Assembly (NCBI RefSeq): GCF_026151205.1
Contig: NC_087072.1
Span: 15,228,169-15,292,168 of the forward strand
From: Bolinopsis microptera
Lineage: Eukaryota > Ctenophora > Tentaculata > Lobata > Bolinopsidae
Length of the DNA stretch: 64,000 nucleotides
Direction: 5' to 3'
Below are positions 1,780 to 52,886 of this stretch, one piece after another. The first letter of the stretch is position 1. The number at the start of each line of letters is the position of its first letter. A model generated the notes under the pieces. It made no database searches, was not told the origin of the DNA, and saw only the letters and a program-made list of their open reading frames with translations. The translations under genes and the position numbers were made by a program.

Positions 1780-4700
1780 ATGTCAGAAGTGAGCGCAGCA
1801 CTGCAAGGTATCAGGAAGGGAGATGGCACGGACACCCAACCTGTTCTCCACCTGGTGGAACTGCTAAAGTCACGTGACACCTCCCACCTCCCCCAGCTCC
1901 TCACCCTCTCCCCCAGCTGTAGTGAGGTGTTCTCTTGGTGGGACAGGGGTCCCGGTCAGCACACCCAGTCAGCAGCCTGTTTTACACTGTTCGCCCTTCT
2001 TAACAAGTCCGTCCTCAAGGAACACCTTCAGTTCCAGGCACAAGCTGTGGCACTGTGTAGGAAGCTAATAAAGGAGCGGTTACACAGTGTGTATAGTTGT
2101 CTCAGTAAGTATAGCTCTGTCCCGGCTAGGAAGAGATGTTTGGAGTTCCTTATCTTGCTTAATTGTTTCGGGGGCTCCGTCACTAAAACCCTCCTGGACG
2201 ATTTCAACTTTGGTAATGCCTCCCTGAAGCAAATGTTAGCAAACCATGGGCCAGCTCACGAAGACGCAGTTAGATTTATGCTCTCATTTCTCTGTATCCC
2301 TTCTCTTGACTTGAAGGTTAAGTTTATGCAAATGAAGAATGTTCTGAAGATCATGACCACACGGATTGGAAAAGATAGTGTGGAGCTAAAACTGGAGCTA
2401 CTCAATGTTTTGTTGGAACACGTTTTAAACGTCGCTAAGATACAGAAGAGGGTAATGTGCCAGTTTTTTGCTGTCCCTGTCCTTGTTAAGATCTCCTATT
2501 TCTGGGAGGACTCTGTTAAGGAGCTGCAGGAGCAGACAAGTGTGTTTTTCAGGGCTCTGTTTCATCGTAAGACTGGGATATTGTTCGATTCAACCGCAAA
2601 AGATGTACTGACAGACTGTACGAGAAATCCTGTGCTGTTGAACTTTGTAAAGCATGCTTCCTCAAACAGTCAATACTACAGTGAGTTCGTTGTGGACATG
2701 GTCAAGATTTGTCCCGAAGTTTCATCTTCAATGATAAGCAGTATCATCACCAAGAAATCTTCCGACTTGTCCTTTGCTTCAGTTCTCTGTTCTGTTTTAC
2801 GAGCTAGGGATGTAGAGGCCTTGCTATCCACTGTTACTCCGGACATTACTGATAAACAAATCATAGACTATTTAGTCCCAAAACCTGTTTCAGACTTGCT
2901 AGAAAAACAGTTAAAGACAACAGTTGATATCGGTGTGTATCCACTGTTACTGGCCCTGATAGGATCTGCTTCCAAGGCTGTTGCTATGCTTCAAGATCGA
3001 GAGCAACTCAAAGATATTGCTCTATACAACTTAGTAGATATCTCTGTTATCAACTCAGCTGGACTTCTCACTTCTGCATTTGCTGGACATTACTCCATCA
3101 TAGACATGTTCAGTCTTTATCAGTATAAGATAGAGAAGTTGATAGATTTATCTGAGAGTGGTGAGCTGTCTGAAGATGATGTGAACTTACTTGTCCTGAC
3201 TTACCCCGCTGCACTTAGAAGATTCGTCAAGTCTAACCACGCAGCTGTCGTTAAGAAAGTAACGGAGAAAACAGGGCAATCCAAGAAGCTATTCCACAAG
3301 ATAATGTTAGCTATAAATAGTGATGTTGAATACTCACAAGCTATCAACATTATAGAATCGATCATCTTTGATGATCATTCTGATATGATTGTCACAATTA
3401 AAGGAGAGAAACGTGACTTCATATTGGACGAAGAAATTCTTATTTTGGTCAATAAGGTATGCGACTTCTCTACCTCCTTTGGACTTGATTACCTTACCAC
3501 TATACTGGACGGAGTAAAATCCAAGGAATGTGATATGGAACTCCGGGTAAGGTGGAATGTGACTTAATTCCACGATTGATCGCCTACATTTGTAATCCTC
3601 TGTTTGATATCCCGGATGCGAATTTTTCTAAATGGATGGAGTTCGATTTACGAGAAAAGTTGCTGAGCCATGACTCTCCAGTATTCTTTCTAGGATCACA
3701 CTTTGTTTTAGGAGATCATTTGTGGGGTGAAATGCAAACTCATTACTACGACGAAATCAGAACAGATCCCATTTTGGTTGCCAACATGGTCAAAATGTTC
3801 CAACAGTTTTCATTCGTCCTCTTCAAAAATGGAACCAGTAACAGAGATGTATTCCACCATTTTCTGCAATTATTTGACGACAACTTGATGACGGAAATGC
3901 ACAACAATCCAAAAGTATACGCGAAAACTATCGCCTACCTTCAGAAGACTGTTGATCAGCTGATCGAACGGAATCACGAAGCATTTTACGAGGTTGATGT
4001 TTTGAAGTGTGTCATCATGAAAGAATGGCTGACAGAGAAGCGCGTAGAAGCAGTTATACAGAATGTTTTGATGAGTGAATGTTCCGATGACCGGAAAGAT
4101 GACGAGCTAATACCAATCATCAGAGACCATCTGGACAAGTTTGCTGAATTTTGCGGACCCCGAAGTTACCTTGCGACCAAATTATTCTATTTTGGTATGT
4201 ACCACTTCTTCGACCTCTTCCAGTCGTCACCAGAGAAGATAGACGAGTACCATATTGTTTGGTTTTTGCATTTCCTTGGTAAGAATGGTGCATTGTGTTC
4301 TGACATATTTTCACACATTCCTCAAGAAATCGCCGAAAAAATGTATTCAGAAATATGTTCGGATGCTTGTTTAGTTTACATAACGAAGAACTTTGATGAC
4401 GCCTCTAATGCCTATTCGTTAAACCTAACCAACTACTCAAGATTCCAATGTATCTTGTTGTTAGAAAATTACCTGCGTACTGAATACTCCAGAGAGTGTG
4501 ACTATGTTTTTGATGTATCACAGTATAAAGAACACAAACAAGATTACCAGGAATACTGCAAAGAATTTGCTCATGCTACAGACATTTCAGAGGAATGTCC
4601 ACGGACAGTGGACGATAAACGAGTATGTCTCCTCTCGGAAATAATCTGCAAAACTGAACCTAAGAATGAGTTAGAAGCCCTTTACCTGGTCTCTGAAGCT

Positions 4701-6158
4701 ATCAATCTGGAGTGTACCACATTCTTCACTTCAAGACACCTTGATAAAACAGCTGAACTCTCGAACTGCTTGAAAAGTAAGAAAATCCTGAAACAAATAT
4801 TCGAATTATTTATGAGTAAGTCTGATATTGGCAGCCTCAAAGCATTCTTGTCACAACACGTGTCAGTTTACGAAGAACACCTTCCAGCTTTTACCAGGAA
4901 ACAGATCGATAAGTCTGTGTGTTCAACTGCAGAGTTGTTGGATCAAACAATTGTTCCAGAAACCAGTCAAAACGGGCTCAAAATGAATATCGAAATCTTA
5001 ACACAGCTCATAATCACGTTCCAAGAAATAGTTCCCGGGGAACGTCTGTCTCCTATCTTCGATACCTTGATCGCTCATCCAGCAGTACAGAAGTGTTTGG
5101 TTTCCGAGCTAAGTAGTGAGAAAACATTGCTGACTAAACTATTTGTTTTGCTGTTGGAAACTGGAAAAGTACCCTCCGAGACCCTGAACAAAGCCCACTA
5201 TCTTATCTTCCAAACCTCTTATTCAGCAACCACCTCTGTTGCTGACAAAAACGTTTTAAAGATCCTGAAACATTTTGAAGAGCAGGGTGTGGTGTCCAAA
5301 TACCCATTCGCATATGGATCTGACGTGGCCGATCTGAAAAGCATCAAAAACATCGCCCACTACAACGAATACTGCATCAAGATCCTGGAAAACATCGACA
5401 GTGACATGATGAACAATCTGATAGATAACTTTCCCTTACACTCTGAGGAAAGCATGAAGATGGTGACGGACAGTGTGGAATCTCTGGTAACAGCTGACAC
5501 CGAGTACATTCTATCCCTGCTTCACCACGTGCTGAGAAATGGGGAGGTAGATGTGCGCATGATCCTGTCCCATCCTATCAGTAAGGTTATGTTACTTGCT
5601 CTAAGCAGCTACGATGAAGCTACCAGACGTGTCGCATTCGTCTGTCTGGAGAGGACATCCCTCCTTATAGAGGAGGAAAAGTTCAAGGAGAAAGCTATGT
5701 GTTTGTATTTGTTTAAGATGATTGAAAACTCTATAACCTCGGTTGAAGAGAGATTACCTCATTTGTCTGTATATTTTCTTGGTAGAATGCTTCACGCTTT
5801 ATTTACACCACACAAGCATATCTACCAGAATATTTGCCACTTTTTACTGCAGAGGCCCGTGTTTGATTTCCATGATGTTCCCATGTTTTACGGCATGTTT
5901 TGTAGCTCTAACCTTTACTTTAAACAGGATCAGAACTGGTTGTTAGAAATTCTTTGTGTTGCTGTGCGAGATGAGATTGATTATAAGATTCTTACCAGGA
6001 GACATGTTTTACCTCACTGCTTTTCACAGATTTCTTGCCATAATTTAGATAAGCATACCTTAAAATTGATACATAAGTTGCTGAGAAAGGTGTTTAGTAT
6101 TAAGAGTGTAAAGGTTCAAAATGATTTAGCTGATTTAGGAATCACTGCAATTGATTAG
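1780..6158 (+). CDS. URB1: URB1/Npa1-like nucleolar ribosome-biogenesis protein, with one frame break
   Basis: Two long abutting frames, 1780-3568 and 3534-6158, together encode about 1,450 residues of leucine-rich helical-repeat protein. URB1 (yeast Npa1) is a nucleolar scaffold for early 60S pre-ribosome assembly. The N-terminal part resembles the Npa1 domain, with alternating helices typical of the family (e.g. FLSFLCIPSLDLKV-like segments). The C-terminal 150 residues (RPVFDFHDVPMFYGMFCSS...) resemble the family's C-terminal NUC173/NopRA1 region. Human URB1 is longer (about 2,270 residues). The start is the first ATG, after multiple upstream stops. The frames cannot be joined by a canonical GT-AG intron. 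The break lies between two copies of GGAATGTGA (3525 and 3554) spaced 29 bp apart, and ignoring that 29-bp interval restores one frame. Otherwise apparently single-exon. Family call good; whether the break is real is open. Confidence 0.78.
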
Positions 6159-8924: not shown

Positions 8925-9930
8925 ATGTATAGACGCTTTGGCAGTCAATTGTAGCCTACGTTTAAGTGTCCGTAGATTCAAAAGTATAAAAGATACAGTC
9001 ATTTGGAACCACAGGTTTTAAAGATAATCGTTTATACTTTAGTTTACATTATATCGAAAAATAATTTATCGTCATCATCATCACTTGATGACGTCATCAA
9101 TTTAAGTGTTTTTAAAACTTGATTTTTGACAAAATAACAACTTTTCAAATCGATTTTAAACCATTAAGAAGTAATTTTATTCAAAATCTGAGGACATTTT
9201 CATCTAAGATAATTGTTCAAGCATTCTGAAAATCTACCGGAAAAGTTTCCTACCTTACTCCTTCATAAAGATATTTGCTATTGAAGTTAGTGCGTTTTTG
9301 AAGAATAATTTTATAAAAACACAAAAGTTGTGAATTAGTATTCTCTGATGTTGGACCATCCCTTGGGTTGTGGAGCTCAATTTTGCTTCTTAAAGGTCTA
9401 AATTGTGTTATAGGCTAGTTTTAAAGTTGAAAATCGAAAATTTGCACACGTGGGGACACGCCCAAATTGATTTAAAATAGCTTATATCACTGAAAATTGT
9501 TATTTTCACGATTTTTATCAACTTTGGAGTCCCGTTGTGATCCAAGTTCTTTTTGAAATCTTCTGAAACTTTGTATGCTTATCAAACTATATATTAAATA
9601 CCACTATACAAAAATTTACGATGATTCAATATTGTATGCGCACGCAACGTCCGCTCAAAGTTTGCACGTGCGAAAGGTGAGAATTTTGCTCATTTGTGAT
9701 TTCGAATATATTCTGCTTTCCCACGATATTTAAATGGCATTATATATGAATTAAATGCCAACTTGAATGAGTAAGAAGTGCCATATTCAGTCTGTTATCG
9801 ACAGATATACCTACCTAAACACAAGGAAATGTTTTCAAAGGTAAAATTTCGAAATCGTTGAAATTACCTCCTTATTAATGAAGTTTCGACTGTGTAAATT
9901 ATCCTGACATTATAATCAAAAAGAGATGAT
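8925..9930 (+). repeat. Repeat A, copy 1
   Basis: A 1-kb non-coding unit starting GTATAGACGCTTTGGCAGTC and ending at an FB element after ATAATCAAAAAGAGATGATA. It contains a perfect 14-bp palindrome TGATGACGTCATCA (a CRE-type bZIP site) near 9090. Other copies: 10824-11846, 12370-13360, and a reversed copy split by a LINE (44864-45639 plus 52887-53119). Confidence 0.85.
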
Positions 9931-10259
9931 ATTTGACCAAAACCCATAATCATGGGTAGAGTGAACCGCTGCCAGTGTCTCTCTTTTCCAAACAAAAGGA
10001 AATGATATTAATTTGAGGAACCGTCCGCAAATGCAAATTGATACCGAGAATGAAATCGGTCGCTCGCTTTTCCCATTCATTCACGGCTTACGAATTGTAA
10101 TAAAGCTTATTGAGTGGGAAAAGCGAGCGACCCATTTCATTCTCGGTATCAATTTGCATTTGCGGACGGTTCCTCAAATTAATATCATTTCCTTTTGTTT
10201 GGAAAAGAGAGACACTGGCAGCGGTTCACTCTACCCATGATTATGGGTTTTGGTCAAAT
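9931..10259 (+). mobile_element. FB foldback element, copy 1 (short loop)
   Basis: A giant hairpin: 5' ATTTGACCAAAACCCATAAT and its exact complement at the 3' end, with arms of about 145 bp that differ at a single visible base and a short loop with TTACGAATTGTAATAAAGC. ORFs here on both strands are just readings of the inverted repeat and code for nothing recognisable. A non-autonomous DNA element is likely. No transposase is present. Confidence 0.88.
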
Positions 10260-10823: not shown

Positions 10824-11846
10824 AGGGATAGACGCTTTGCCAGTCAATTGTAGCCTGTATTTAATTGTCCATAGATTCAAAAGTATAAAAGATAAAGCCA
10901 TTTCCGACCACAGGTCTTGCAAATAATTGTTTACACTTTAGTTTACATTGTATAAAAAAATTATTTGACGTCATAAACACCCCTTGATGACGTCATCAAG
11001 TTAACCGTTTTTAAAACTTGATTTTTGACAAAGTAATAACTTTTAAAATTGATTTTAAACCATTAAGGAGTAATTTTATTCAAAATCTGAGGAGATTTTC
11101 ATCTTAGATAATTGTTCAAGCATTCTGAAAATCTACCGGAAAGTTTTTCTAGCTTGCTCCTTCATAAAGATATTCGTCATTGAAGTTTGTGCTTTTTTGA
11201 AGAATTATTTTATAAAAACGTCAATTTTGCGATTTAGTATTCTCTGGTGTTGGGCCATGCCTTGAGTTGAGGAGCTCAGTTCTGCTTCCTATAGGTATAA
11301 ATTGTGCATTAGGCTAGTTTTGAAGTTGAAAATCGAAAAGTTGCACACGTGGGGACACGCCCAAATTGATAGAAAATTGCTAAAATCACTGAAAATTGCT
11401 GTTTTCGTCATTTTCTGTCAACTTTAGAGTGCCGTTGTGATTACAGTTCTTCTTGAAATACTTTGAAACTTTGCATGCTTATCAAGCTATATATAAAACA
11501 ATTACATGAAAAAATTTACGGCGATTCAATATTGGATGCGCACGCAACGTCCGCTCAAAGTTTGCACGTGCGAAAGGTGAGAATTTTGCTCATTCGTGAT
11601 TTCCAACAAATTCTGCTTTGCCACGACAGTTTAATGTCATTATATATGAATTTAATGCCAACTTGAATGAGTATTAGGTGGCATATTCAGTCAGTGATCG
11701 ACCGATATGCTTACCTAAACACAAGGAAATGTTTTTAAAGGAAAATTTCGAAATCGTTGAAACTTCCTCCTTATTAATTAATGAAGATATCAGTTTATAT
11801 TTCGACTTTATAAAGTACCCTGACATTATAATCAAAAAGAGATGAT
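10824..11846 (+). repeat. Repeat A, copy 2
   Basis: Second 1-kb A unit, more diverged from copy 1 but collinear, again followed immediately by an FB element. It retains the TGATGACGTCATCA palindrome near 10986. Confidence 0.82.
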
Positions 11847-12352
11847 ATTTTACCAAAACCCATATTCATGGGTAGAGTGGACCGCTGCCAGTGTCTCTCT
11901 TTCCCAAACAAAAGGAAATGATATTAATTTGATTGACCGTTCTCAAATGCAAAATGATACCGAGAATGAAATCGGTCGCTCGCTTTTCCCATTCATTTAC
12001 AATTGTAATAGATTAAGAAGATCTACCCAAAGGCAGCTGTACTCGGCAATAAAGATTCAATAAACTTCAGCTAATTCAATAAGCAATAACTACTACCCTT
12101 ACCCCGAAATACTAGGTATCGATCCGAACGCAACCCAAAGAGATTTTTACAGCATCTGACTGATGTAATCAATCGAAATTTATTACAATTCGTAAGCCGT
12201 GAATGAATGGAAAAAGCGAGCGACCGATTTCATTCTCGGTATCATTTTGCATTTGAGAACGGTCAATCAAATTAATATCATTTCCTTTTGTTTGGGAAAG
12301 AGAGACACTGGCAGCGGTCCACTCTACCCATGAATATGGGTTTTGGTAAAAT
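11847..12352 (+). mobile_element. FB foldback element, copy 2 (long loop with J-domain-like fragment)
   Basis: Same arms as copy 1 but with a loop of about 170 bp. Both arms carry the same private changes relative to copy 1 (TTACC for TTGACC, CATATTCATG, ACCGTTCTC, GCAAAATG). The loop contains a short open stretch (12091-12159) resembling the start of a DnaJ J domain. Confidence 0.86.
12091..12159 (+). pseudogene. J-domain-like fragment captured in FB loop
   Basis: Twenty-two codons then TGA. They read Y-x-x-x-PEILGIDPNATQRDFY, which matches the opening of J domains (Y-x-ILG(V/I)-x-x-xA(T/S)-x-x-(D/E)I). J domains recruit Hsp70. The piece is far too short to work and is present again at 60915-60986, so it moves with the element rather than being a local gene remnant. 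A chance resemblance is possible but the match over 15 residues is good. Confidence 0.5.
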
Positions 12353-12369
12353 ATATAATTATAATTATA

Positions 12370-13360
12370 TGTATGTATAGACGCTTTTGCAGTCAATTAT
12401 AGCCTACATTTAAGTGTCCGTAGATTCAAAAGTATAGAAGATACAGTCATTTCGAACCACAGGTTTTAAAGATAATTGTTTATACTTTAGTTTACATTAT
12501 ATCAAAAAATAATTTATCTTCATCATCATCACTTGATGACGTCATAAAATTAAGTGTTTTTAAAACTTGATTTTTGACAAAGTAATAACTTTTCAAATCG
12601 ATTTTAAACCATTAAGGAGTAATTTTATTCAAAATCTGAGGACATTTTCACCTTAGACAATTGTTCAAGCATTCTGAAAATCTACCGGAAAAGTTTCTTA
12701 CTTTGCTCCTTCATAAAGATATTCGCTATTGAAGTAAGTGCTTTTTTGAAGAATAATTTTATAAAAACACAAAAGTTGTGAATTAGTATTCTCTGGTGTT
12801 GGGCCATCTCTTGGGTTGTGGAGCTCAATTGTGCTTCCTAAAGGTCTAAATTGTGTTATAGGCTAGTTTTAAAGTTGAAAATCGAAAAGTTGCACACGTG
12901 GGGACACGCCCAAATTGATAGAAAATTGCTAAAATTACTGAAAATTGCTGTTGTCGCCATTTTTATCAAATTTGGAGTCCCGTTGTGATCGAAGTTCTGT
13001 ATGAAATCTTCTGAAACTTTGCATGCTTATTAAACTATATATAAAATACTGCTATGCAAAAATTTGCGGTGATTCAATATTGTATGCGCACGCAACGTCC
13101 GCTCAAAATTTGCACGTGCGAAAGGTGAGAATTTTGCTCATTCGTGATTTTGAATAAATTCTGCTTTCCCACGATATTTAAATGGCATTATATATGAATT
13201 TAATGCCAACTTGAATGAGTAAAAAGTGCCATATTCAGTCAGGTAAAATTTCGAAATCGATGAAATTACCTCCTAATTATTAATATAAATATTAATGAAG
13301 TTATGAGTTTACATTTCGGCTTTGTAAATTATCCTGACATTATAATCAAAAAGAGATGAT
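12370..13360 (+). repeat. Repeat A, copy 3
   Basis: Third A unit, directly after FB copy 2 and directly before FB copy 3. It has no B unit before it. The CRE-like palindrome has one change (TGATGACGTCATAA). Confidence 0.82.
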
Positions 13361-13689
13361 ATTTGACCAAAACCCATAATCATGGGTAGAGTGTACCGCT
13401 GCCAGTGTCTCTCTTTTCCAAACAAAAGGAAATGATATTAATTTGAATAACCGTCCGCAAATGCAAATTGATACCGAGAATGAAATCGGTCGCTCGCTTT
13501 TTCCAATCAATAAGCTTTATTACAATTCGTAAGCCGTGATCGAATGGAAAAAGCGAGCGACCGATTTCATTCTCGGTATCAATTTGCATTTGCGGACGGT
13601 TATTCAAATTAATATCATTTCCTTTTGTTTGGAAAAGAGAGACACTGGCAGCGGTACACTCTACCCATGATTATGGGTTTTGGTCAAAT
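13361..13689 (+). mobile_element. FB foldback element, copy 3 (short loop)
   Basis: About 145-bp arms identical by eye. Private changes relative to copy 1 (GTGTACC for GTGAACC, GAATAACC for GAGGAACC) occur in both arms. Confidence 0.87.
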
Positions 13690-23900: not shown

Positions 23901-26900
23901 GTTTTGGGTCTCGGTGTTATCATCTTGGTTGGGCAACAGAAGTGCAACAGCACAGGTTTTCGTTCCGGAAAGGAATTCAGAAGCATATTGTGACATGGTA
24001 TTAAGGTCTTTGAGTGGAGATTTTAATCTTGCTTCAATGAACTTCACTGCAATTGCCCAGTCTTCACTGCCGTGATAGTGGTACATTTTTTCGTTGATGA
24101 ACACTTTGTTCACAGACGCACCTCTAAGTTCAATCCCATACTTTTCCCCTATTTTTGGATATTTTGCCAGATCCACTTGGGCAACTCGGACCCCCTCACC
24201 ATGCAGCTGTTTATTGACATGGTTAGCTAACTCATGTATCTGGCTGCCTTTACCAAGACACTGCTGTGACATACACCTGCTATCGGTGAATTTGACCCAA
24301 CATATCCTCTCCTCGACACAGTCTGAGAAACTTGCCTCGTCCAGGATCCACAATGCTGACAAAGGGGGAACGTAGCTAGGTGACCCGAACTCTTTGATCC
24401 ATTTGACAAGATCTTCGGGTGATGTTGGTGATCCTTTGTAGACTTGCTGATATGGGAAATCACTACCATCGATCACCATAGTAGGATAATTCCACACGTC
24501 ATACCTGTCACCACTTGCTGCATGCTCGGATACATCTATCTGAGATAACTTTATATCCACGGTACTATCTTCTTCTATCTGCTGTGAAACTCTCCTGAAA
24601 ACGGGCAGCGCAGCTTGACAAGTGCCACAACTCGGGCTGTAGAACATGATGCAGAACTTTCCAGGCTTGGTGATGAAACTTGCAAATGTGTCATCTGTTA
24701 ACTCTTGCAGGGCAAGAGAAGACGGCAGGAGACACAAGATAACAACGAACGTTATCATAATCCTGTGACATTTTTATAAGTATATCATAACGGAATCGAG
24801 TTTCAGAGCATTGAATAGGTTGAAATAAAATAAAAGATATCACAAATACGAACAATACGACCCGTGAAACCGAAATAAAAGGTAAAACTGTAAACGAACA
24901 AAGCTTTTGTGAGAACGGCTACTTCAGGAAACAGGGCCTCAAGATTTAATACAAGAACAGTCAAATGATCAATACACAGTACAGTGTAGACGTGTCTAAA
25001 AAAAACAGCTGATAGAAGGTCAATGACTGGTTGAACTTGCTACACGCTGTTTGTGTAGCTACTTGTTAGTTATGTGGCAAGGTTGAACAAACGATACCAT
25101 ATTCCCCAATTTTAGAGGAATTTGTTTCCCTTTGAATCAATCAAACTAGATGAATTGTTGTAAATACTGAGATCAAACTATCAATCTACAGGCTATCGTC
25201 AAACATGTTGCAAGGCGTCATCTTCAGTGACATAAGCCCTAGAAATTGTAAAAAGTTAGTAAAACCCAAAATTCCTTTAAAAATCTGAACACTCTTAAAA
25301 CGGTTATAAAGTTAAAATTAAGATGTTAGGAGTAATGGAAGGCTAAAAGGATTTATAGTGTTAATTCCCAAAGGTTTTAAAGTCTTGAGTAGTTGAATAT
25401 ATTTATGTTCCCGGACATCCAAAGTTTTAGGACTAGAATTATCAATAATTGACACATTAAAAATTTTGTTAAAATCTTCCCTTTGTCTAAAACCATGATC
25501 CAACAAATGTAAACCCAAACTATATTCATCACTTGTTTCATCTACCTTATCACCATTTAAAAGTTTATAATATTTGACCCTATGTTCTCCAGTCCTAACC
25601 CGTAGAGATCGAGTTGTGCGACCGACGTAAGCCTTTCCACAGGCACTACATTGGAACAGATAAATGATGTTGTAGCTCTGGCAGTTTCCAGGGGAAGCTT
25701 TAACCTTCTTGCCGTTCACTTTGAATTCACGGGTGCCTTTGACAAGTTCACAACATTTGCATCTTGGCACATTGCATTTGCTGGTTGGGCCATGTTGAGC
25801 TCCTAAAGCAAGTTCTTTCAATTTGACGAGGCGAGATTTTAGGCTTGGCCCTGTTTTCTTTGTGTAACTGAAAATTGTCTTCCTAGGCGTGGCAGATGTT
25901 GTGGAGGTCTCTTGGGATGTTTCAGCAGTGTCACTTTCACTGAAACTCCTCGTTCTTGAGAGGTGTTCTTCATACTTCTTAGTCACATTCCCCAATTTTA
26001 TCTAAGAGAAGGCGTTCTGATAGAACGCACTCGAGAATATCATGAATAAAACAACTTAAACACCGTCTCTTTTTCAGCCCGAAGCTCTACTCTGGTTCCT
26101 CAACAATCCTGCTCCATGTTCGCCCCATCGTGTGTGTGTTTGGCTGCTTCTCACAAATCTTCACCGCAGTTCTGGCAATAACCAGACTCCTTAGCATAAT
26201 CATGCCATTCCTTCACTTGAGACAAAAGTACATCTTTGGGTACATCATGATCCATATCCTTTACATGATTGTGGCGAATATGACCTACTACGGGATAGAC
26301 GCGTTCTACGCGAAAGAGGACCTTACCGAACTCCTGGTATCTGTAATGAACATAATGGAAGATGTGTGTTTCTGGTCTTATTTCCTACACTGTATGGTGG
26401 GAGTGGTAGCGTCCATAGTAACGTTCCTGTTCCTGCTGGTGGAGCGAGGTAGGAATCCAGCTACAGCTGAGAAGTATCTGAGAAGTAGCATCACACTCCT
26501 CCTCATGAACCTGCCTTACATTATCACCATGGTCCTCATTGGTGGGATTCAATGGTCGGCAGCGTGGGGACTGAACAGCAGGGAGATAGTGTTCGCGTGG
26601 GTTCCTATTTTTACATCTGCACTAGATCCGGTGATCGTGATTGCTAGGAAGAAAGAAGTAATGGAGAAGGTTGCAGCTGCTGTAAGGAGCAAAGAGGGAC
26701 ACTCCGTCTCGGGAACCAGATCAACAATGCTATCTCAACAAGTTTAAATCATACTACTGCCTCTACAATCAAGCTAATATGTACTACAATCAAGTTAAGT
26801 TGTACTGTATCAAAACCAACACTATGACTAAACAAATGAACAGAATCTTGTGATTTATTTACATTATTAATTTACATGATTTTACAGTTATAATTGATTT

Positions 26901-44534: not shown

Positions 44535-44863
44535 ATTTGACCAAAACCCATAATCATGGGTAGAGTGTACCGCTGCCAGTGTCTCTCTTTTCCAAACAAA
44601 AGGAAATGATATTAATTTGAGGAACAGTCCGCTAATGCAAATTGATACCGAGAATGAAATCGGTCGCTCGCTTTTTCAAATCAATAAGCTTTATTACAAT
44701 TCGTGAGCCGTGATCGAATGGAAAAAGCGAGCGACCGATTTCATTCTCGGTATCAATTTGCATTAGCGGACTGTTCCTCAAATTAATATCATTTCCTTTT
44801 GTTTGGAAAAGAGAGACACTGGCAGCGGTACACTCTACCCATGATTATGGGTTTTGGTCAAAT
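44535..44863 (-). mobile_element. FB foldback element, copy 4
   Basis: Arms of about 145 bp identical by eye. They carry private changes in both arms (ACAGTCCGCTAATGC and GCATTAGCGGACTGT) that no other copy has. It sits at the FB end of a reversed B-A-FB composite. Confidence 0.88.
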
Positions 44864-45639
44864 ATCATCTCTTTTTGATTATAATGTCAGGATAATTTAC
44901 ACAGCTAGTCGAAACTTCATTAACAAGGAGGTAATTTCGACGATTTCGAAATTCTGCCTTTGAAAACGTTTCCTTGTGTTTAGTTAGGTATATCTGTCGA
45001 TAACCGACTGAATATGGCACTTTTTACTCATTCAAGTTGGCATTAAATTCATATATAATGCCATTTAAATATCGTGGAAAGCAGAATATATTCGAAATCA
45101 CGAATGAGCAAAATTCTCACCTTTCGCACGTGCAAACTTTGAGCGGACGTTGCGTGCGCATACAATATTGAATCACCGTAAATTTTTGCATAGTGGTATT
45201 TAATATATAGTTTGATAAGCATGCAAAGTTTCAGAAGATTTCAAAAAGAACTTGGATCATAACGGGACTCCAAAGTTGATAAAAATCGTGAAAATCAAAA
45301 TTTTTAGTGATTTTAGCTATTTTAAATCAATTTGGGCGTGTCCCCACGTGTGCAACTTTTCGATTTTTAACTTTAAAACTAGCCTATAACACAATTTACA
45401 CCTTTAAGAAGCAAAATTGAGCTCCACAACCCAAGGGATAGCCCAACACCAGAGAATACTAATTCACAACTTTTGTGTTTTTATAAAATTATTCTTCAAA
45501 AAAGCACTAACTTCAATAGCAAATATCTTTATGAAGGAGTAAGGTAGGAAACTTTTCCGGTAGATTTTTAGAATGCTTGAACAATTATCTAAGATGAAAA
45601 TTTCCTCAGATTTTGAATAAAATTACTTTTTAATGGTTT
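44864..45639 (-). repeat. Repeat A, copy 4, proximal part (split by LINE)
   Basis: Reverse complement of repeat A up to TTAATGGTTT. The other half begins AAAATCGATTTG at 52887. Joined, these two halves reproduce the intact sequence seen in copies 1-3. Confidence 0.88.
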
Positions 45640-46339
45640 TATTTTGTTTTAAAGACCCGAGGGCCACCCTTAAGGGCTTTGAAACCGGTTTATTGACAAT
45701 ATAATATATAATAAATAAACTGAAATCGTAACATTCATGTCAATACTAACTGAAATAATATAAGCTGTAGTTAAAATAATAATACTTACTGTCACTTAAT
45801 TAAGATATATGATGTAATAAAATGAATCTCTTTATTTCCACACTAATTCTCACACCAAGCTTTAATTCACGCACCAAAACTTTAAATTTTATCAGATTAC
45901 AAATGTCCGAATATATACGTCTCTTATCTTTTAGTTAAAAAGTCAGGGGTGCAGCCGTTTAACTTCAATTAAGATTAAAACAATTCATCACGCTGGATCA
46001 CGATGTTATTCTATCAAAATCAGCTAGGCGATATTTGAATTGATTGCTGGGCTCTGTGTGGTACTGTGTAGTGGTAAGTGGGTGTGTGTGCGCGCGTGGT
46101 TGTTATTATGATGCGTTGAGATCAGCTACGTTGATGATATGTGATTGTGCGTGTTGTGCTGATAAGGCTTTAATTGAGCAATGGCCAGGAGTACTATCAG
46201 TAAAATAGTAGCAGGTCTGGCAGTGAAAATTTTCCGATTTCAAAAGTGGTCGGTAATTATTAGTTTTGAAGTGCTTTTGTAACTAAGAAGTTTATTGAGT
46301 GAGTGCCTCATGTTGTTTACATAGTTTACTAATACTAAG
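45640..46339 (-). other. LINE 3' untranslated region
   Basis: Runs from the RT stop to the junction with repeat A. No ORF. The terminal 60 bases can form a GC-rich stem-loop before a short A-rich end, a likely recognition site for the element's reverse transcriptase. Confidence 0.65.
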
Positions 46340-48382
46340 TTATGTTGTGGGGTGTGTGATTTTGTGATTTTGTGACCGTTGAGATTTCCTTAAACCTGGA
46401 ATATTATTCAGTAAAAAGGTTTGCCAGCTTTCCTCGTTGTTGCCTCTTGATTGGTGTTCCAATAGCACACTTTTTGCATTAGACTTGTAAATGTTTATTG
46501 AAAATAAGCTGGGAAGACAAGTTATATTTAAGTTTGTTTCAGTGATGGCAAGCAGTGGACCTTTAAAAAATACTGATTGTCTAAAAGTGTTACTACCGTA
46601 TGTAAGAAGCCAGTCAGAGCTAGTCTCATGGCTGGAGTTAACTGTCGGGATATTACTTGGAAAAAGGCCTTTGATTGATTTTGGCACTGTTTCAGGGAAG
46701 TATTTCATCCTGTGCATTAATATAAGTGCGTTCTTCACGATTATTCCATGAATAGTGAGAATTCCATACTCTTTAAAGCTATCCCTCGTGTGTGCAGGCA
46801 ATTGGCCGTCCTTGTAGAAATAGTTGACGTAACCTGGCATAACCATTCTCACACCTTGTTTCTGTTTTGTGAATAGTGACTCAATGTGTGATTTGGCTGC
46901 GAAACCCCAGACGAGGGAGCAGAAATTGAGGTGGGATTGAACAAAGCTGTGATAAATTTGAAGCCTGACTTTTAACGGTAAGTGCCGTTTAATTTTGTAC
47001 ATGATACCCATGTATCTATTCATCCTGGCCCTAACGGCATGTATGTGTTTGCTCCACGTTAATTTATCATCGATTATTACTCCGAGGAAACGTGCCTCAG
47101 TCACTTGATCTATCACTACTCCAGCTATGGAAACATTAATGTTAGAAAGGGTTGTCGTTCTATGATTGCTAAATACCATAAAGTGAGTTTTTTTGAGATT
47201 GAGAGCAAGTCCGTTGCTATCAACCCATTTGATCAGGAGCGAGGTTATTTGATTTAGTTTGAACTGAACCTCTTGCTCGGTGTAACCAGTAACTATGATA
47301 TTCGCATCGTCTGCGTACAGTATAAACTTAGCTAAATTTGTGATGTTTGGAAGGTCGTTGATATAGATCACAAAGAGTAATGGTCCCAAAATCGACCCCT
47401 GGGGTACTCCAAACTGGATTTCTTTGGGCCTCGAGTCTTCTCCACCGACAGTCACGAATTGGTGACGGCCGCTCAGATAGGACTCGAACCATTTAAGTGC
47501 TGAACCTATAATGCCGTAATGTTCCAGTTTTTTTAGTAGTATAGGATGTTCAATAACGTCAAAAGCTTTAGAGTAGTCAAGAAGAAGCAGCACAGCAATT
47601 TGCTTACTGTTGAGAGAGTGTAGAATACTATTTTGAGCATTAAGTAAAGCGTGTTCACATGACATGCCAGGCCTAAAACCGTACTGGCTTTCAAAAAGTG
47701 ATCCATTGAAGTCTAAAAATTCAAGAACTCGACTATGCATGAGTTTTTCGTATATTTTCGAGAAAGAGCTTAGCAAAGAGATTGGTCTGTAATTAGTAAC
47801 TTCTGTTTTAGAGCCACCTTTGTGTATCGGAACAACTCGTGCCGATTTTAGAGCATTTGGAAATATTCCCTCAGTAAAGGAAGAATTTATGATTACGGCC
47901 AACGTTTTTGTGAATTTCGTATCTAAGCTTGCAAGCTTCATTGGTTCAATTTTTGTGTCAAGTGTCGCTTTGTTCTTGAATTTTTTTACTACTTTACTGA
48001 TTTCAGAGGGCGTAACAGGTCTTAACTCAATACTGCTAGTACCTATATCCGTCCTACGTCCGTCCTGTAAGAATTCTTCAAAACCTCCTGGATCGAAAGT
48101 TTGCCTAGCACTTATCTGGGACTTTATGTTGCTTGCAATGTTGGAAAAATACTCATTAAATTTAGCCGATACATCGGAATGGCTGCTGAGTATGTTTCCA
48201 CATTCATCCTTTATTTTAATAGGCCCAGAGTGCCTGACATTTCTACCCAGGAGACTATTAATAAGTTGCCACTGCTTTTTGGAGTTGTCGCGGTACTCCT
48301 CAAAAAAGTTTTTGTAGTACTTGGTTTTGGCCAAATTTATATGTTTGTTACAAAATTTATTAATTTTTTTTGTACGCAGCAA
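46340..48382 (-). CDS. LINE ORF2, reverse-transcriptase part
   Basis: 680 residues in one frame. RT motifs are in order: palm aspartate in LLDYSKAFD (about 269), FGVPQGSILGPLLF (about 324), YADD (356-359), then NLKKTHFMVF and the FLGVIIDDKLTW thumb-type block. The C-terminal part contains the cysteine-poor tail common to CR1/L2/Jockey groups. It is in a different frame from the upstream endonuclease; the two meet in an A8 run at 48364-48371, and one A fewer would join them. It catalyses target-primed reverse transcription. Confidence 0.9.
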   Translation of the reverse strand: MLRTKKINKFCNKHINLAKTKYYKNFFEEYRDNSKKQWQLINSLLGRNVRHSGPIKIKDECGNILSSHSDVSAKFNEYFSNIASNIKSQISARQTFDPGGFEEFLQDGRRTDIGTSSIELRPVTPSEISKVVKKFKNKATLDTKIEPMKLASLDTKFTKTLAVIINSSFTEGIFPNALKSARVVPIHKGGSKTEVTNYRPISLLSSFSKIYEKLMHSRVLEFLDFNGSLFESQYGFRPGMSCEHALLNAQNSILHSLNSKQIAVLLLLDYSKAFDVIEHPILLKKLEHYGIIGSALKWFESYLSGRHQFVTVGGEDSRPKEIQFGVPQGSILGPLLFVIYINDLPNITNLAKFILYADDANIIVTGYTEQEVQFKLNQITSLLIKWVDSNGLALNLKKTHFMVFSNHRTTTLSNINVSIAGVVIDQVTEARFLGVIIDDKLTWSKHIHAVRARMNRYMGIMYKIKRHLPLKVRLQIYHSFVQSHLNFCSLVWGFAAKSHIESLFTKQKQGVRMVMPGYVNYFYKDGQLPAHTRDSFKEYGILTIHGIIVKNALILMHRMKYFPETVPKSIKGLFPSNIPTVNSSHETSSDWLLTYGSNTFRQSVFFKGPLLAITETNLNITCLPSLFSINIYKSNAKSVLLEHQSRGNNEESWQTFLLNNIPGLRKSQRSQNHKITHPTT

Positions 48383-49922
48383 TATTTGTCACGCTGGGAA
48401 CTTTTATCTTATCGTGGTAGAGACGTTGTCTACGGGCACATGCATCTTCTAGCCACGGTAAGATCCAGGGTTTTGAGTCGTGCCGTTCATTTTTACGTCT
48501 AGGTCCAGGTTTCTTTTCAGGATATGCTTGATCGTAATGTTTGGAATAGATTTCACTGAATTTGTCATACTGGTCATTCGCATTAGTTTCTCTGTGCACC
48601 TCACTCCACGTTTCGCTCTCAATAATTCTTTTGAAATCAGCATGTGCAGCCGCATTGAACCTGCGGAAGTTCGGCACCTTCTCACGACCCTCACTCGATA
48701 TAACGCGCCTCCCTGCACTCCTGCCCAGTGAGAGTGTCGTCAGTGTTGCTAAGTGGTCCGACACATTGACCGTCAGTACATGACAACTCAAGGTATTTAA
48801 TAGGTCGTTGGTATAGACGTGGTCAATTAAGGTTGCGCTATGATCAGTTACACGAGTGGGCCTTGACACCAGTTGTACAAATCCATATTTTTCATAAACT
48901 GCGATAAGATTTTTCCCTGCTACATCTTTTTCGTGTTTTACTAAATCAACATTATAGTCACCGGTAAAAACGATGTGTTTGCGAGAGTGCCTATCAAGAC
49001 TTCGAAGTAGGTTATCTAGAATTTCGGTAAATTTGTCAATACTCCTGGAAGGAGAGCGATAAACATTAACTAACAGTTTAGTTTTGTTGAAGCCTTTGCA
49101 GTTGTGAATCTTTACAAATTGGAACTCACCGTTCAAGTCACCATCCCCCTCAAAATGTGGCCTAAAAGATTCAATTTGTTCCGGATTACAGACCCGTTTG
49201 TTAATATATATCGTTAAACCCCCTCCCCTGCCTGTTTTCCTTACAGGGTCTTGCTGGATAGGCTCGTAGAAATTTTCCAAAATAAGGTCAGTAATCCCGT
49301 TCGGTAATTTATTCAGAGTACAGTTGGTTTCATTAAAACTTAAGATATCGAAATTGCTATATGTGTCGATCTCTTCCCGGAAGTAGCTGATGTTATTATG
49401 TAGTGATCTCACATTTAGGGAAAAAATCTTGAGCTCGTTGCGATTCGCAGATTTTACGTGCGTCGGCTGCTTATATTCACAGCGTTGTAAGAATTGAGAT
49501 AGCTCGTTCCAATAATCAGAGCAACCCTCGTGATCATCTAGCTTATCTCCTATATCATTTATTAAACAATCTCTGTGGTACGGATTAAATGAGATTTTGT
49601 CCGACTCTGTGCAGTAGTTCTCGTTCAAATCGATGCAGTTTATATTGAAACCTGCAATATTCTCCTCGCAACACTTCACACATCCTAACACACCTCTGTA
49701 GCATTTCACGTGAACTTTCCTGTCGCACCAATCACATTCTCTCACATTATTTATAGAATAAGACCATCCTAAACAAGCGTAACACTGTGCCTTAAATTTA
49801 ACTTTCGCCTGCTGAGAGCCACTATCGTTTACAGTTTCATCAATATTCGAGTGTAGATCGTTACTAGTATTACTGTTTTTACAGCTCTTGCATGACCAGG
49901 TAGGATTCGCTTTCAGCGAATC
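48360..49922 (-). CDS. LINE ORF2, second PHD-like finger and APE-type endonuclease
   Basis: About 520 codons in one frame. N-terminal cysteine cluster: TWSCKSC (end of a first PHD-like finger), then CYAC...CDWCDRKVHVKC...CVKC, a second PHD-like finger. The endonuclease follows: LNVRSLHNN (Asn), SFNETNC (Glu), RGGGLTIYI, FTGDYNVDL (Asp, Asn), LIDHVYTN and VSDHLATL (Ser-Asp-His), the full catalytic set of the exonuclease-endonuclease-phosphatase fold. It nicks target DNA for reverse transcription. The frame opens inside a 43-bp hairpin at 49892-49934 and ends at TAA 48360-48362 in an A8 run. Confidence 0.88.
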   Translation of the reverse strand, partial: DSLKANPTWSCKSCKNSNTSNDLHSNIDETVNDSGSQQAKVKFKAQCYACLGWSYSINNVRECDWCDRKVHVKCYRGVLGCVKCCEENIAGFNINCIDLNENYCTESDKISFNPYHRDCLINDIGDKLDDHEGCSDYWNELSQFLQRCEYKQPTHVKSANRNELKIFSLNVRSLHNNISYFREEIDTYSNFDILSFNETNCTLNKLPNGITDLILENFYEPIQQDPVRKTGRGGGLTIYINKRVCNPEQIESFRPHFEGDGDLNGEFQFVKIHNCKGFNKTKLLVNVYRSPSRSIDKFTEILDNLLRSLDRHSRKHIVFTGDYNVDLVKHEKDVAGKNLIAVYEKYGFVQLVSRPTRVTDHSATLIDHVYTNDLLNTLSCHVLTVNVSDHLATLTTLSLGRSAGRRVISSEGREKVPNFRRFNAAAHADFKRIIESETWSEVHRETNANDQYDKFSEIYSKHYDQAYPEKKPGPRRKNERHDSKPWILPWLEDACARRQRLYHDKIKVPSVTNIAAYKKN

Positions 49923-50106
49923 CTACCTGGTCATTAGATAACGATTCGCATTTATGATGTTTAGTTGCTTTACATGTTGCACAAAAGAGTAATGGATGAT
50001 TCTTTGTTAAACGTGTTTTACAAGTGCCACATTGTTTAGAATTGGTCGGTGGATCTACTTGATTAGTTATACTGATAATATTTATATAAAACTTGTAATA
50101 TAGTTT
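49879..50106 (-). CDS. LINE ORF2, N-terminal PHD-like finger part
   Basis: Open frame with CGTC...CATCKATKHHKC, i.e. C-x2-C-x12-C-x2-C-x4-H-x2-C, the first half of a PHD finger. The missing W-x-C-x2-C half (TWSCKSC) is in the neighbouring frame just downstream, so the finger spans a frame break inside the hairpin. No ATG starts this frame after the TAG at 50107-50109, so the true start is unclear. PHD fingers of CR1-type elements may target chromatin. Confidence 0.6.
   Translation of the reverse strand, partial: KLYYKFYINIISITNQVDPPTNSKQCGTCKTRLTKNHPLLFCATCKATKHHKCESLSNDQVGFAESESYLVMQEL
49892..49934. repeat. Perfect 20-bp hairpin at the LINE ORF2 frame break
   Basis: Arms ATGACCAGGTAGGATTCGCT and its exact complement around a 3-nt loop (TTC). 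On the coding strand the downstream frame is closed by a TAG in the first arm, and the upstream frame closes soon after the second arm. Any passage from one frame to the other must therefore happen in or next to this hairpin. Confidence 0.9.
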
Positions 50107-50985
50107 CTATAGAACTAGGAAAACGTAACCTGTCAGAACTGTTCAGCAAGGACTATTCAGCCCTGAGTGTGAATCAGCTCGTGACTTTCTGACTAAACTA
50201 AGAGTAACCTGTACAGATTTACCTGTACAGAGTACAAATCAAAACCTGCCTGCCTGTTTATTATACCTGCCTGTTTAAAATGAAATTAAAAAAAATACAA
50301 GATCTGTGTGAGAGTGTATACAAATTGTAGTGCTGTATCTGTGTGACCTCATTCCTGAAAAAAATTGTGTCACGTATGTCATCGTAAGATTGTACGTCGT
50401 ATGTTCTATTATGTTATAAATGTCTGTCATACTGACATAATAATTATAGTAATGAATATTTTGGGTTATTGATATGAAAGATCGTGACCGTTTAAGTGTG
50501 ATTGTATTGTTATTATCAGCCTTGATTTAGTGAGATAGTGATGGTTGATTTCAGAAATAGTTGACTGAGTTAATGTAAAGGTTAATAGGCCGATTTGAAT
50601 ATTAGACTAGAATAAATTGTAAATATGAGATTACAGGATGAGATTAGATAGTGTTTGAAAGAGCCAATCAGATCATTTCTAGCCTCGATGCTGAACTGTG
50701 AGCAGCTGATTTTGAAAAAATAAAGTCATGGGATCGCTAAGACATGAAAATATAGCAAATAATTGATGATAGCCACTAGCCAGTTTGAAATTATAGTGCG
50801 ATTATTTATTTGTAATCCTCTTTTCATTGTACGATAGGCTGCACCCTCTGATGCAGGTATTTGTCGATACGTTTAATCACAGCAGATTTGTTGACATTTT
50901 GGGTAATTTAATAGACTTCTTTTAACATAACTTAAACTTAACTTTATCAGTCAGCTCAACTTCATGGCTTAAACACAAAACTAGT
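50107..50985. other. LINE inter-ORF spacer
   Basis: About 0.88 kb between ORF1 and ORF2 without a long ORF on the - strand. A spacer this long is unusual where ORF2 is expected to be translated from the same RNA by reinitiation. It could hide decayed coding sequence or an internal initiation signal; nothing in the bases decides. Confidence 0.5.
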
Positions 50986-52800
50986 TCACCTATAAGTGGA
51001 CCGAGAAAATCGTTCTACTATGTTAGCATAAAGGACGCGTAAGGGTAGCGGCCCTTTACGCAGCCCCAGAGTCAAGAGGATACAGTGAACCCAGCATCTG
51101 GTGAGCACTGATTTACCTAGCTTGTTGAAGTGAATGCCGTCGCGTGCCAGGTGCGGTAGGCCGAATAGAACATTATCAAAGAGTTTGAAATTTCTACTGC
51201 GTAAGGAGAGTTGGAGCATCAGTTCGTTCGTCAGATCTATTGTCCGGTTCATTTTGTTGAAACGATCTGCATTTATGGACAATGGGCTGATGGAGTCAAA
51301 TAAAAACTGAACGTTCAAGTGTCTGTACTTGTCAATGAAAAGTTTAACGTGGTTGTGGAGAGTCTGGGGATCTGCACCGTTTTTCCTCAGGTCGTTTATC
51401 CCTGCTGAGATTAGGACTACGTCAGCCTGCCGAATGGACTCATCGTGTTGGTCGAGATCGCGCAGCAGAAAGAGATCATTTCTGAAAGCTACGGCAGGCT
51501 CTTGCAGTTCACTGCAATCAAAAGAAGCGTTTTTGGAATCAGAGAGGATCAGTACGCGTTTAGGCCCTGGCTGGCTGGTGGTGGAGGGATGAGAGACAGG
51601 GCTCTGCTTAGGACGGGATGATGGACTGATCAAAGTTCTGCAAGTAATGCTGATCCGGGTGCCTGTGCACTGCTCTTGATGGACCCGCGGTACACTGTGA
51701 TCGAAGAGGTTCTGGCTAGACCGAGTCATGGAGTACAAAGACCCGTGCTCGGGGGTAATGGAAAATCGCTCGTACTTTCCTGGCAGCTTCCTCCTGAAAA
51801 CAACTGGGCGTGCAGCTCCGAGAGTGATGGTCAGGATGGAACTATCGGGGTCAAGCGACGGCTCGTTGTCGCTGTGGGGAGGAATGTGAGCTGTGTGTGA
51901 GTCGTATTTAGTCACCAAGAAACTATTTGAGGATTCATGGACATCGGGGGACAAAGATACGAGTTTATCAATAATAAGTTTCAGATATGGGTTTGAGTCA
52001 AAATCCCTAGCCTTGTGGTGGCTCCCCCCGTACTTATAAGGCAATGATCCGTAATAAGCCGTTTTCCTGCTCCCAAAATCACGGTCATATTCTGTCCCTG
52101 AGTCCAAGACTCCTGCATCAAAATCTGCGAACGGATTACCTTCGTAAAGTTCGTAAGGTTCCAGATTACCTGGTGAGTGCTGACTAACTGGAGCATCTGA
52201 CGGTGCTGGAGCTGGAGGTGGAGAGAAGCAGATGTCAGCGTTCTCTGGAACTGCAGGCGGAGCACACGTAGCTGGTGTTTGGAGGTCTGCTACCAGTGTC
52301 TGGGCGGAGTCGATGTTCTTCTTCAGCTCCTCCAACTGGGAGTTCGCTTCACAGACGTGCCTCGAAAAATGGGAGGTTAGATCGTTCAGTCTGTGTGTCA
52401 GTGCGTCGCCGTCAGTCATTAGAACACGAGTAAAGTGTTGTTTGAGGGAGAACTCCTTTTTCCTAGGAGTGTCACGTAATTCGACGTAGCTCTTGTCGTC
52501 GTAAATTCTCGTGAGCTCATCAAAAATTTGTTGGTCCGACAATTTGTCGACTAAATCAATGCAGAGTTGTGGGCTATAGCATCTGATGTTTGTCTGTGTC
52601 GAACAATCAATTTTCAAGACTGTACCTGCACTTTGTAGATTTGCCAGGTAGCCCTCTTTAAGACTGTAGGTAGCGGTGGGCGTGCCGCTACCTGGCGGCC
52701 CGGTGGAGTGTTGAGAAGACGCTGGACTGATCATGTCTGTCAGGTGATGGTGGTGGTGGTGGTCCGGTCTGTTGAGTCGGTACAAGAATGACGTCAACAC
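50986..52800 (-). CDS. LINE ORF1: AlkB-like 2OG-Fe(II) dioxygenase fused to SGNH esterase
   Basis: 604 residues, one uninterrupted frame. Residues 1-60 are low-complexity with a His run (14-19). About 75-175 are helical with a coiled coil (QLEELKKNIDSAQTLVADL). About 240-390 form an AlkB-like domain: YYGSLPYKYGGSHH, then H309-S-D311 in PPHSDNEP, the TITLGAARPVVF strand, H368 in LFDHSVP, and R382/R388 in GTRISITCR. That is the full Fe(II) triad plus the R-x5-R that binds 2-oxoglutarate. About 413-575 form an SGNH esterase: LILSDSK (S422), SAGINDL (G467, N469, D470) and DGIHFNKLG (D554, H557). AlkB enzymes strip methyl groups from RNA or DNA bases. The esterase is known from CR1/L2 ORF1 proteins; an added AlkB is not standard. 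The ORF lies within the LINE boundaries, so it belongs to the element. Confidence 0.88.
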   Translation of the reverse strand: MLTSFLYRLNRPDHHHHHHLTDMISPASSQHSTGPPGSGTPTATYSLKEGYLANLQSAGTVLKIDCSTQTNIRCYSPQLCIDLVDKLSDQQIFDELTRIYDDKSYVELRDTPRKKEFSLKQHFTRVLMTDGDALTHRLNDLTSHFSRHVCEANSQLEELKKNIDSAQTLVADLQTPATCAPPAVPENADICFSPPPAPAPSDAPVSQHSPGNLEPYELYEGNPFADFDAGVLDSGTEYDRDFGSRKTAYYGSLPYKYGGSHHKARDFDSNPYLKLIIDKLVSLSPDVHESSNSFLVTKYDSHTAHIPPHSDNEPSLDPDSSILTITLGAARPVVFRRKLPGKYERFSITPEHGSLYSMTRSSQNLFDHSVPRVHQEQCTGTRISITCRTLISPSSRPKQSPVSHPSTTSQPGPKRVLILSDSKNASFDCSELQEPAVAFRNDLFLLRDLDQHDESIRQADVVLISAGINDLRKNGADPQTLHNHVKLFIDKYRHLNVQFLFDSISPLSINADRFNKMNRTIDLTNELMLQLSLRSRNFKLFDNVLFGLPHLARDGIHFNKLGKSVLTRCWVHCILLTLGLRKGPLPLRVLYANIVERFSRSTYR

Positions 52801-52886
52801 AGTACAACACGTACTATCTTATCAGCAATCCATTAGCGAGTGAAATTGCTAACGAATTGAAAAGTAAATGTGATCGAATGTGGTGT

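Follow-up and report, generated by a model that had tools for sequence, protein, structure and literature searches.

The 64,000-nucleotide window analysed here (positions 15,228,169 to 15,292,168 of contig NC_087072.1, assembly GCF_026151205.1) comes from the ctenophore Bolinopsis microptera and contains, on its reverse strand, a long reading frame that a sequence-only reading had taken to join an AlkB-type dealkylase to an SGNH esterase inside a long interspersed nuclear element (LINE). Does this frame belong to the retrotransposon, and if so, what might an AlkB domain do there? We found that the window locus is a copy of a LINE with two open reading frames (ORFs) and an APE-type endonuclease, that its ORF1 carries both domains, and that purifying selection acts on both. 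The features are, with positions in the window:

45638..52880, reverse strand: whole LINE insertion, 7.24 kb (99.2% alignment with copy L069 having these ends, and interrupted-repeat junctions)
50986..52734, reverse strand: ORF1 from its first ATG (52734), 582 amino acids; the frame is open from a GTG at 52800 (604 codons)
52279..52467, reverse strand: probable coiled coil formed by a long helix over residues 90-152 of 582 (from secondary-structure prediction, which places the helix at 110-152 in model 1 and at 90-152 in model 2)
51625..52179, reverse strand: AlkB-type Fe(II)/2-oxoglutarate (2OG) dioxygenase domain, residues 186-370 of 582 (sequence and fold matches)
51868..51876, reverse strand: HSD, the iron-binding HxD motif, 309-311 when numbered over the 604 codons (from sequence; H and D retained in 30 readable rows of 31)
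51055..51567, reverse strand: SGNH/GDSL esterase domain over residues 390-560 of 582 (matches to PF13472 and PF00657 that fall short of the cut-offs; fold match to 5b5l)
49882..50106, reverse strand: first part of ORF2, PHD/C1-like zinc finger (PF00130 7.7e-6, PF00628 1.1e-4, both slightly under cut-offs)
48360..49745, reverse strand: ORF2, second weak PHD-like finger and APE endonuclease (PF03372 5.1e-12; PHD 0.045 on 49602-49922)
46340..48382, reverse strand: ORF2 reverse transcriptase (RT), in a frame differing from the endonuclease frame in the window copy (PF00078 2.5e-37; LINE-1 ORF2p 9e-21)
45638..46339, reverse strand: LINE 3' untranslated region, from the end of the RT frame to the end of the L069 alignment

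The AlkB family is defined by an HxD...H iron triad together with two arginines for 2OG. The central domain of ORF1, for which the ATG at 52734 is most likely the start, matched ALKBH3 at 1.4e-10 and phrog_21963 at 5.8e-18, the latter being matched in 10/10 members of set A3; PF13532 was matched in eight of these ten and is absent from the window's own match table. Both by sequence and by predicted fold the closest solved relatives were human ALKBH2 and ALKBH3, which are, however, cellular enzymes and are not known to have a coiled coil or an esterase, whereas ALKBH5 gave no match by sequence and ranked lower by fold. Since the alignment used for AlphaFold2 (AF2) model 1 included 21 viral-contig AlkB sequences (of 29 pattern loci), AF2 model 2 was taken as the independent model. 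The residue before the iron histidine is Trp in all eight phage and plasmid relatives found by tblastn and Pro, Phe or Met in the LINE rows; the Trp seen there in 21/21 pattern-found relatives was imposed by the search patterns. With a significant AlkB match, a predicted fold of the ALKBH2/3 kind and a fold match of the esterase part to 5b5l, the fusion proposed in the sequence-only reading was borne out, and a chance ORF was rejected as the origin of ORF1.

Two lines of evidence fix the ends of the LINE: it splits a repeat, and it aligns with L069. The repeat is intact elsewhere in the window (8937-9721 and 12385-13169) and is interrupted at the LINE insertion, with junctions at 52881 and about 45653, where a 6-base overlap is the only candidate target-site duplication. 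Copy L069, on contig C12, is 99.2% identical to the window LINE and stops at identical bases; another close copy, L070, shows 98.9-99.3% identity across its fetched part and carries an insertion near 50870. Both an APE endonuclease and an RT were matched in ORF2, which lies about 0.9 kb from ORF1 and is disrupted in the window copy by two frame changes. The PHD-like finger and the esterase point towards the CR1/L2 clades (Jockey superfamily). In ORF1 the SGNH domain is preceded by the predicted long helix, to which a coiled-coil role is assigned by analogy with the ZfL2-1 ORF1 protein (PMC3905857; papers are cited here from excerpts of their text unless a whole text is named), and we have filed ORF1 as a variant of the esterase-type (type IV) ORF1 with an added AlkB domain.

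The genome (264.65 Mb, 232 contigs) was searched for further copies. ORF1 gave at least 77 matched stretches at E<=0.001, 69 of them stop-free, a count based on 73 of 849 candidates scored and in which some elements yield two rows. Twenty loci of 10 kb (L069-L088) were then picked from the longer matches in every identity class, which makes them a non-random sample; in 20/20 the ORF1 was open across both domains (537-660 codons) and an endonuclease or RT match lay downstream on the same strand. The ORF2 match was partial in L070, where the locus ends, and in L071, L078 and L083, and an uninterrupted ORF2 frame of 1161-1253 codons was present in 14 of the 20. This pairing, together with the span and ends shared with L069, upholds the proposal that the frame is encoded by the element and carried by other copies. 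Two more loci, L089 and L090, were chosen by their ORF2 and read in small pieces; in L089 an AlkB-SGNH frame, 424 codons long within the piece, lies upstream of a 65%-identical RT. A close copy, L052, carries two stops. Among the ORF1 and RT matches listed, at least 20 of the 67 RT matches have an ORF1 match within 9 kb upstream, and some of the other 47 may be without this ORF1. In the RT group of 72-75% (C1:7923305, C9:6228930 and related matches) each of 12 listed rows has one in-frame TGA.

Conservation was assessed over 31 distinct places in nine groups (>85% identity within a group), sampled from rows with a long open frame and omitting L052. Y299, H309, D311, E313, H368, R382 and R388 of the AlkB domain were retained in 30/30 readable rows, as were S422, G467 and N469 of the SGNH domain, and H557 was retained in 31/31. 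Comparing every copy with the first of its group, so that shared changes were counted more than once, gave within-group ratios of nonsynonymous to synonymous polymorphism (pN/pS) of 0.49 for the N-terminus, 0.18 for the AlkB domain (28 synonymous and 18 nonsynonymous changes) and 0.16 for the SGNH domain (49 and 27 respectively). These ratios indicate purifying selection on both domains; a dN/dS test across copies had been suggested in the sequence-only reading.

The two ORFs do not share one history. The ORF1 of L072 is 57.8% identical to that of the window whilst its ORF2 is only 24.6% identical; conversely, the ORF2 of L088 shares 56.4% identity with that of the window and 62.7% with that of L074, whereas its ORF1 shares only 28.3% and 25.4%, respectively. 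Grouping L088 as its ORF2 would have it is rejected by the ORF1 tree (log-likelihood lower by 217.9, p 1.6e-6). An RT tree including outside LINEs rejects two groupings, L088 with L081/L087 (lower by 206.7, p 1.3e-60) and the window with L072 (lower by 104.6, p 7.2e-6), and places L072 instead with LINE contigs filed under Poribacteria metagenome-assembled genomes (MAGs; support 98/99). The tested groupings were named after the identities had been seen. Counting against exchange, a whole-ORF2 tree without outside LINEs rejected neither L088 with the L081/L084 groups (p 0.097) nor the window with L072 (p 0.156), which we attribute to the very long L072 branch. Since the ORF1 and RT trees conflict, we conclude that LINE lineages have exchanged the AlkB-SGNH ORF1 on at least two occasions, in agreement with the reticulate evolution described for other ORF1 types (PMC4120745).

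In order to place this arrangement we compared it with known systems. ZfL2-1 and other type IV CR1/L2 elements likewise have two ORFs, an APE endonuclease, an N-terminal self-association helix and a C-terminal SGNH esterase in ORF1 (PMC3905857, PMC4120745), whereas the ORF1 of the window has an AlkB domain between helix and esterase. The ORF1 domains named in the available text of PMC4120745 are RRM, CCHC, CTD, PHD, coiled coil, zinc finger/leucine zipper, esterase and transposase 22, and the same text places esterase-type ORF1 only in vertebrate groups; the words 'AlkB' and 'oxygenase' do not occur in its main text, nor does 'oxygenase' in PMC3905857. The nearest known case is an orchid Ty3/gypsy retrotransposon carrying an AlkB demethylase domain (PMC9289625). 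There, however, the element is of the long terminal repeat type and the domain is ALKBH5-like, in a separate ORF and described as a recent acquisition, whilst the ctenophore element is a LINE in which an ALKBH2/3-like domain is fused into ORF1 and spread over nine diverged groups. Plant RNA viruses are also cellular parasites with an AlkB domain (PMC9289625; matches in BFVD) but hold it within a replicase or polyprotein, and the DNA methyltransferases captured by retrotransposons (PMC5890265) are likewise nucleic-acid-modifying enzymes but write DNA marks, where the LINE AlkB is of the eraser type. No published AlkB-carrying LINE was found in searches of the open-licence PMC literature, and one may be in print elsewhere.

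Relatives of the LINE outside this genome were sought with short exact patterns. In viral contigs none was found by RT or by RT plus AlkB patterns, and the ORF1 patterns gave only a phage contig matching residues 64-143, rejected as a chance match to a phage protein; in other genome contigs no ORF1 pattern matched. Ten LINE RT contigs among the latter had no ORF1 match, though at 3.2-5.5 kb they may not reach ORF1. These ten (L002-L011) are filed under bacterial genomes, MAGs and symbionts and are probably misbinned host DNA.

What, then, would the protein do? We favour, with a probability of about 0.55, a self-associating scaffold bearing an ALKBH2/3-type dioxygenase and an SGNH hydrolase, in which AlkB strips 1-methyladenine (m1A) and 3-methylcytosine (m3C) from element RNA or cDNA and SGNH acts towards membranes. 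The protein would self-associate through helix 90-152, as its ZfL2-1 counterpart does, and may bind RNA and join the RNA-protein particle of the element, where the AlkB domain would oxidatively remove Watson-Crick-face methyl groups from the RNA template or the new single-stranded cDNA. Groups of the m1A/m3C type block reverse transcriptases, and their removal would for that reason help target-primed reverse transcription. The SGNH domain might direct the particles to membranes, a role that has been suggested for ZfL2-1.

Several points weigh against this reading. At one site every one of the 30 readable LINE rows has Thr, where Asn stands in 8/8 of the tblastn relatives, in 21/21 of a second set of relatives and in ALKBH3, as aligned with the LINE domain. 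The Asn of the NxY motif contacts 2OG in E. coli AlkB, and cofactor binding may therefore differ in the LINE domain. A single conserved site does not, however, define the family, and since fold, similarity and triad are all present we count the domain as AlkB, altered at this one site. Of the 31 rows, one has gaps in place of the AlkB and SGNH sites, the SGNH aspartate D554 is retained in 23/31 rows and replaced by Asn in eight, and the pN/pS comparisons share ancestry, so that their binomial p values are only indicative. In L090 (C11:10235700-10238000), which precedes an ORF2 related at 47% to that of L072, the 2.3 kb read gave no ORF1 match at E<=0.01 and holds a short frame that is SGNH-like by eye only, although a lack of AlkB-SGNH there would fit L072 having gained this ORF1. 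ZfL2-1 can do without its ORF1 in HeLa cells (PMC3905857), so enzymes carried by ORF1 are not necessarily essential.

Other explanations fit parts of the same evidence. AlkB might act on DNA, repairing alkylated single-stranded cDNA or target DNA at integration or demethylating element DNA: the solved structures of ALKBH2 and ALKBH3 are with DNA lesions (3bty and 8jnr, by their titles) and loss of mouse Alkbh1 raises N6-mA on young L1 5' ends (PMC4982230), yet the anatomy gives no preference for DNA over RNA and ALKBH3 also acts on m1A in mRNA (PMC8917145); we think a DNA role rather unlikely. The sequence-only reading had proposed removal of marks from the element's own RNA or cDNA, as RNA protection or as evasion of epitranscriptomic control. 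That reading is partly supported: the AlkB-SGNH fusion is real, belongs to a multi-copy element and is under purifying selection. Evasion through erasure of N6-methyladenosine (m6A) from element RNA, a route put forward for orchid gypsy elements and plant viruses, could draw on the in vitro demethylase activity of the orchid ALKBH5-like domain (PMC9289625) and on the many plant-virus proteins that model 1 matches in BFVD; it is not favoured, because the closest solved relatives are ALKBH2/3, enzymes of m1A/m3C lesions, with the m6A eraser ALKBH5 the weaker match, and because m6A helps, and ALKBH5 hinders, human L1 retrotransposition (PMC7873242), and we judge it unlikely.

It is improbable, too, that the fold acts without catalysis, having been retained for nucleic-acid binding or for structure. 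The invariant Asn-to-Thr change would suit such a role, as would the account of esterase-type ORF1 proteins as having no known RNA-binding domains (excerpts of PMC3905857), but the iron and 2OG ligands are invariant in the readable rows across groups down to 24% identity, and a dead scaffold needs none of them. A single copy would have permitted the ORF to be a host gene, or a fragment of one, that came by accident to lie beside or inside a LINE, and both the 0.9-kb gap between the ORFs and a difference in GC content (0.49 vs 0.39-0.41) could be cited for such an origin; the L069 element on another contig, with its identical 7.24-kb span, and the pairing of ORF1 with endonuclease or RT in every fetched locus refute this origin, and we give it practically no weight.

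AlkB domains also occur elsewhere in the genome. PF13532 was matched at least 151 times, with 150 of 587 candidates scored. Many of these matches sit in open frames whose lengths recur (551, 593, 611, 646, 676 and 707 codons, among others), which suggests further AlkB-carrying repeat families beyond the fetched set. The three best matches (C5:18690430-18690912, C2:9636400-9636948 and C5:22266892-22267329) are candidate host ALKBH genes. At least six matches lie within frames of 2225-3388 codons:

C10:16875843-16876241 (L091 downstream), C3:14441692, C12:8338315, C9:15868177, C12:2469580, C9:11092850: AlkB (PF13532) in very long frames

In L091 the 1000 codons after AlkB are open and gave no Pfam match; this downstream part has basic repeats and a CxxC motif, presumably reminiscent of Helitron proteins. 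It is conceivable, though we hold it doubtful, that the AlkB-SGNH ORF1 is a roaming anti-methylation module that passes between LINEs, with AlkB also borne by other mobile elements (perhaps Helitron-like giants), and that by clearing methyl marks or damage from the nucleic acids of these elements it counters host defence based on modification.

The window further contains a URB1-like gene at 1780-6158 on the forward strand (PF11707 1.4e-23, PF16201 1.5e-39; two overlapping long frames), a 225-amino-acid frame at 25318-25995 on the reverse strand with a weak GIY-YIG match (0.0031, under cut-off), perhaps a Penelope-like element, and near-perfect inverted repeats resembling miniature inverted-repeat transposable elements, with arms of about 150 bases, at 9931-10259, 11845-12354, 13361-13689 and 44535-44863.

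The ORF1 proteins of LINEs are generally regarded as packaging chaperones. The esterase type has been called unique among them in having an enzyme (excerpts of PMC3905857). A second conserved enzyme-type domain, a demethylase by family, implies that base methylation or alkylation may matter strongly enough to some LINEs for ORF1 to retain an eraser, and suggests that these elements clear methyl marks or damage from nucleic acid, most probably from that of the element. The AlkB-SGNH protein is a new natural fusion for enzymology, and the AlkB ORF1 offers a direct test of whether modification of RNA or cDNA limits target-primed reverse transcription.
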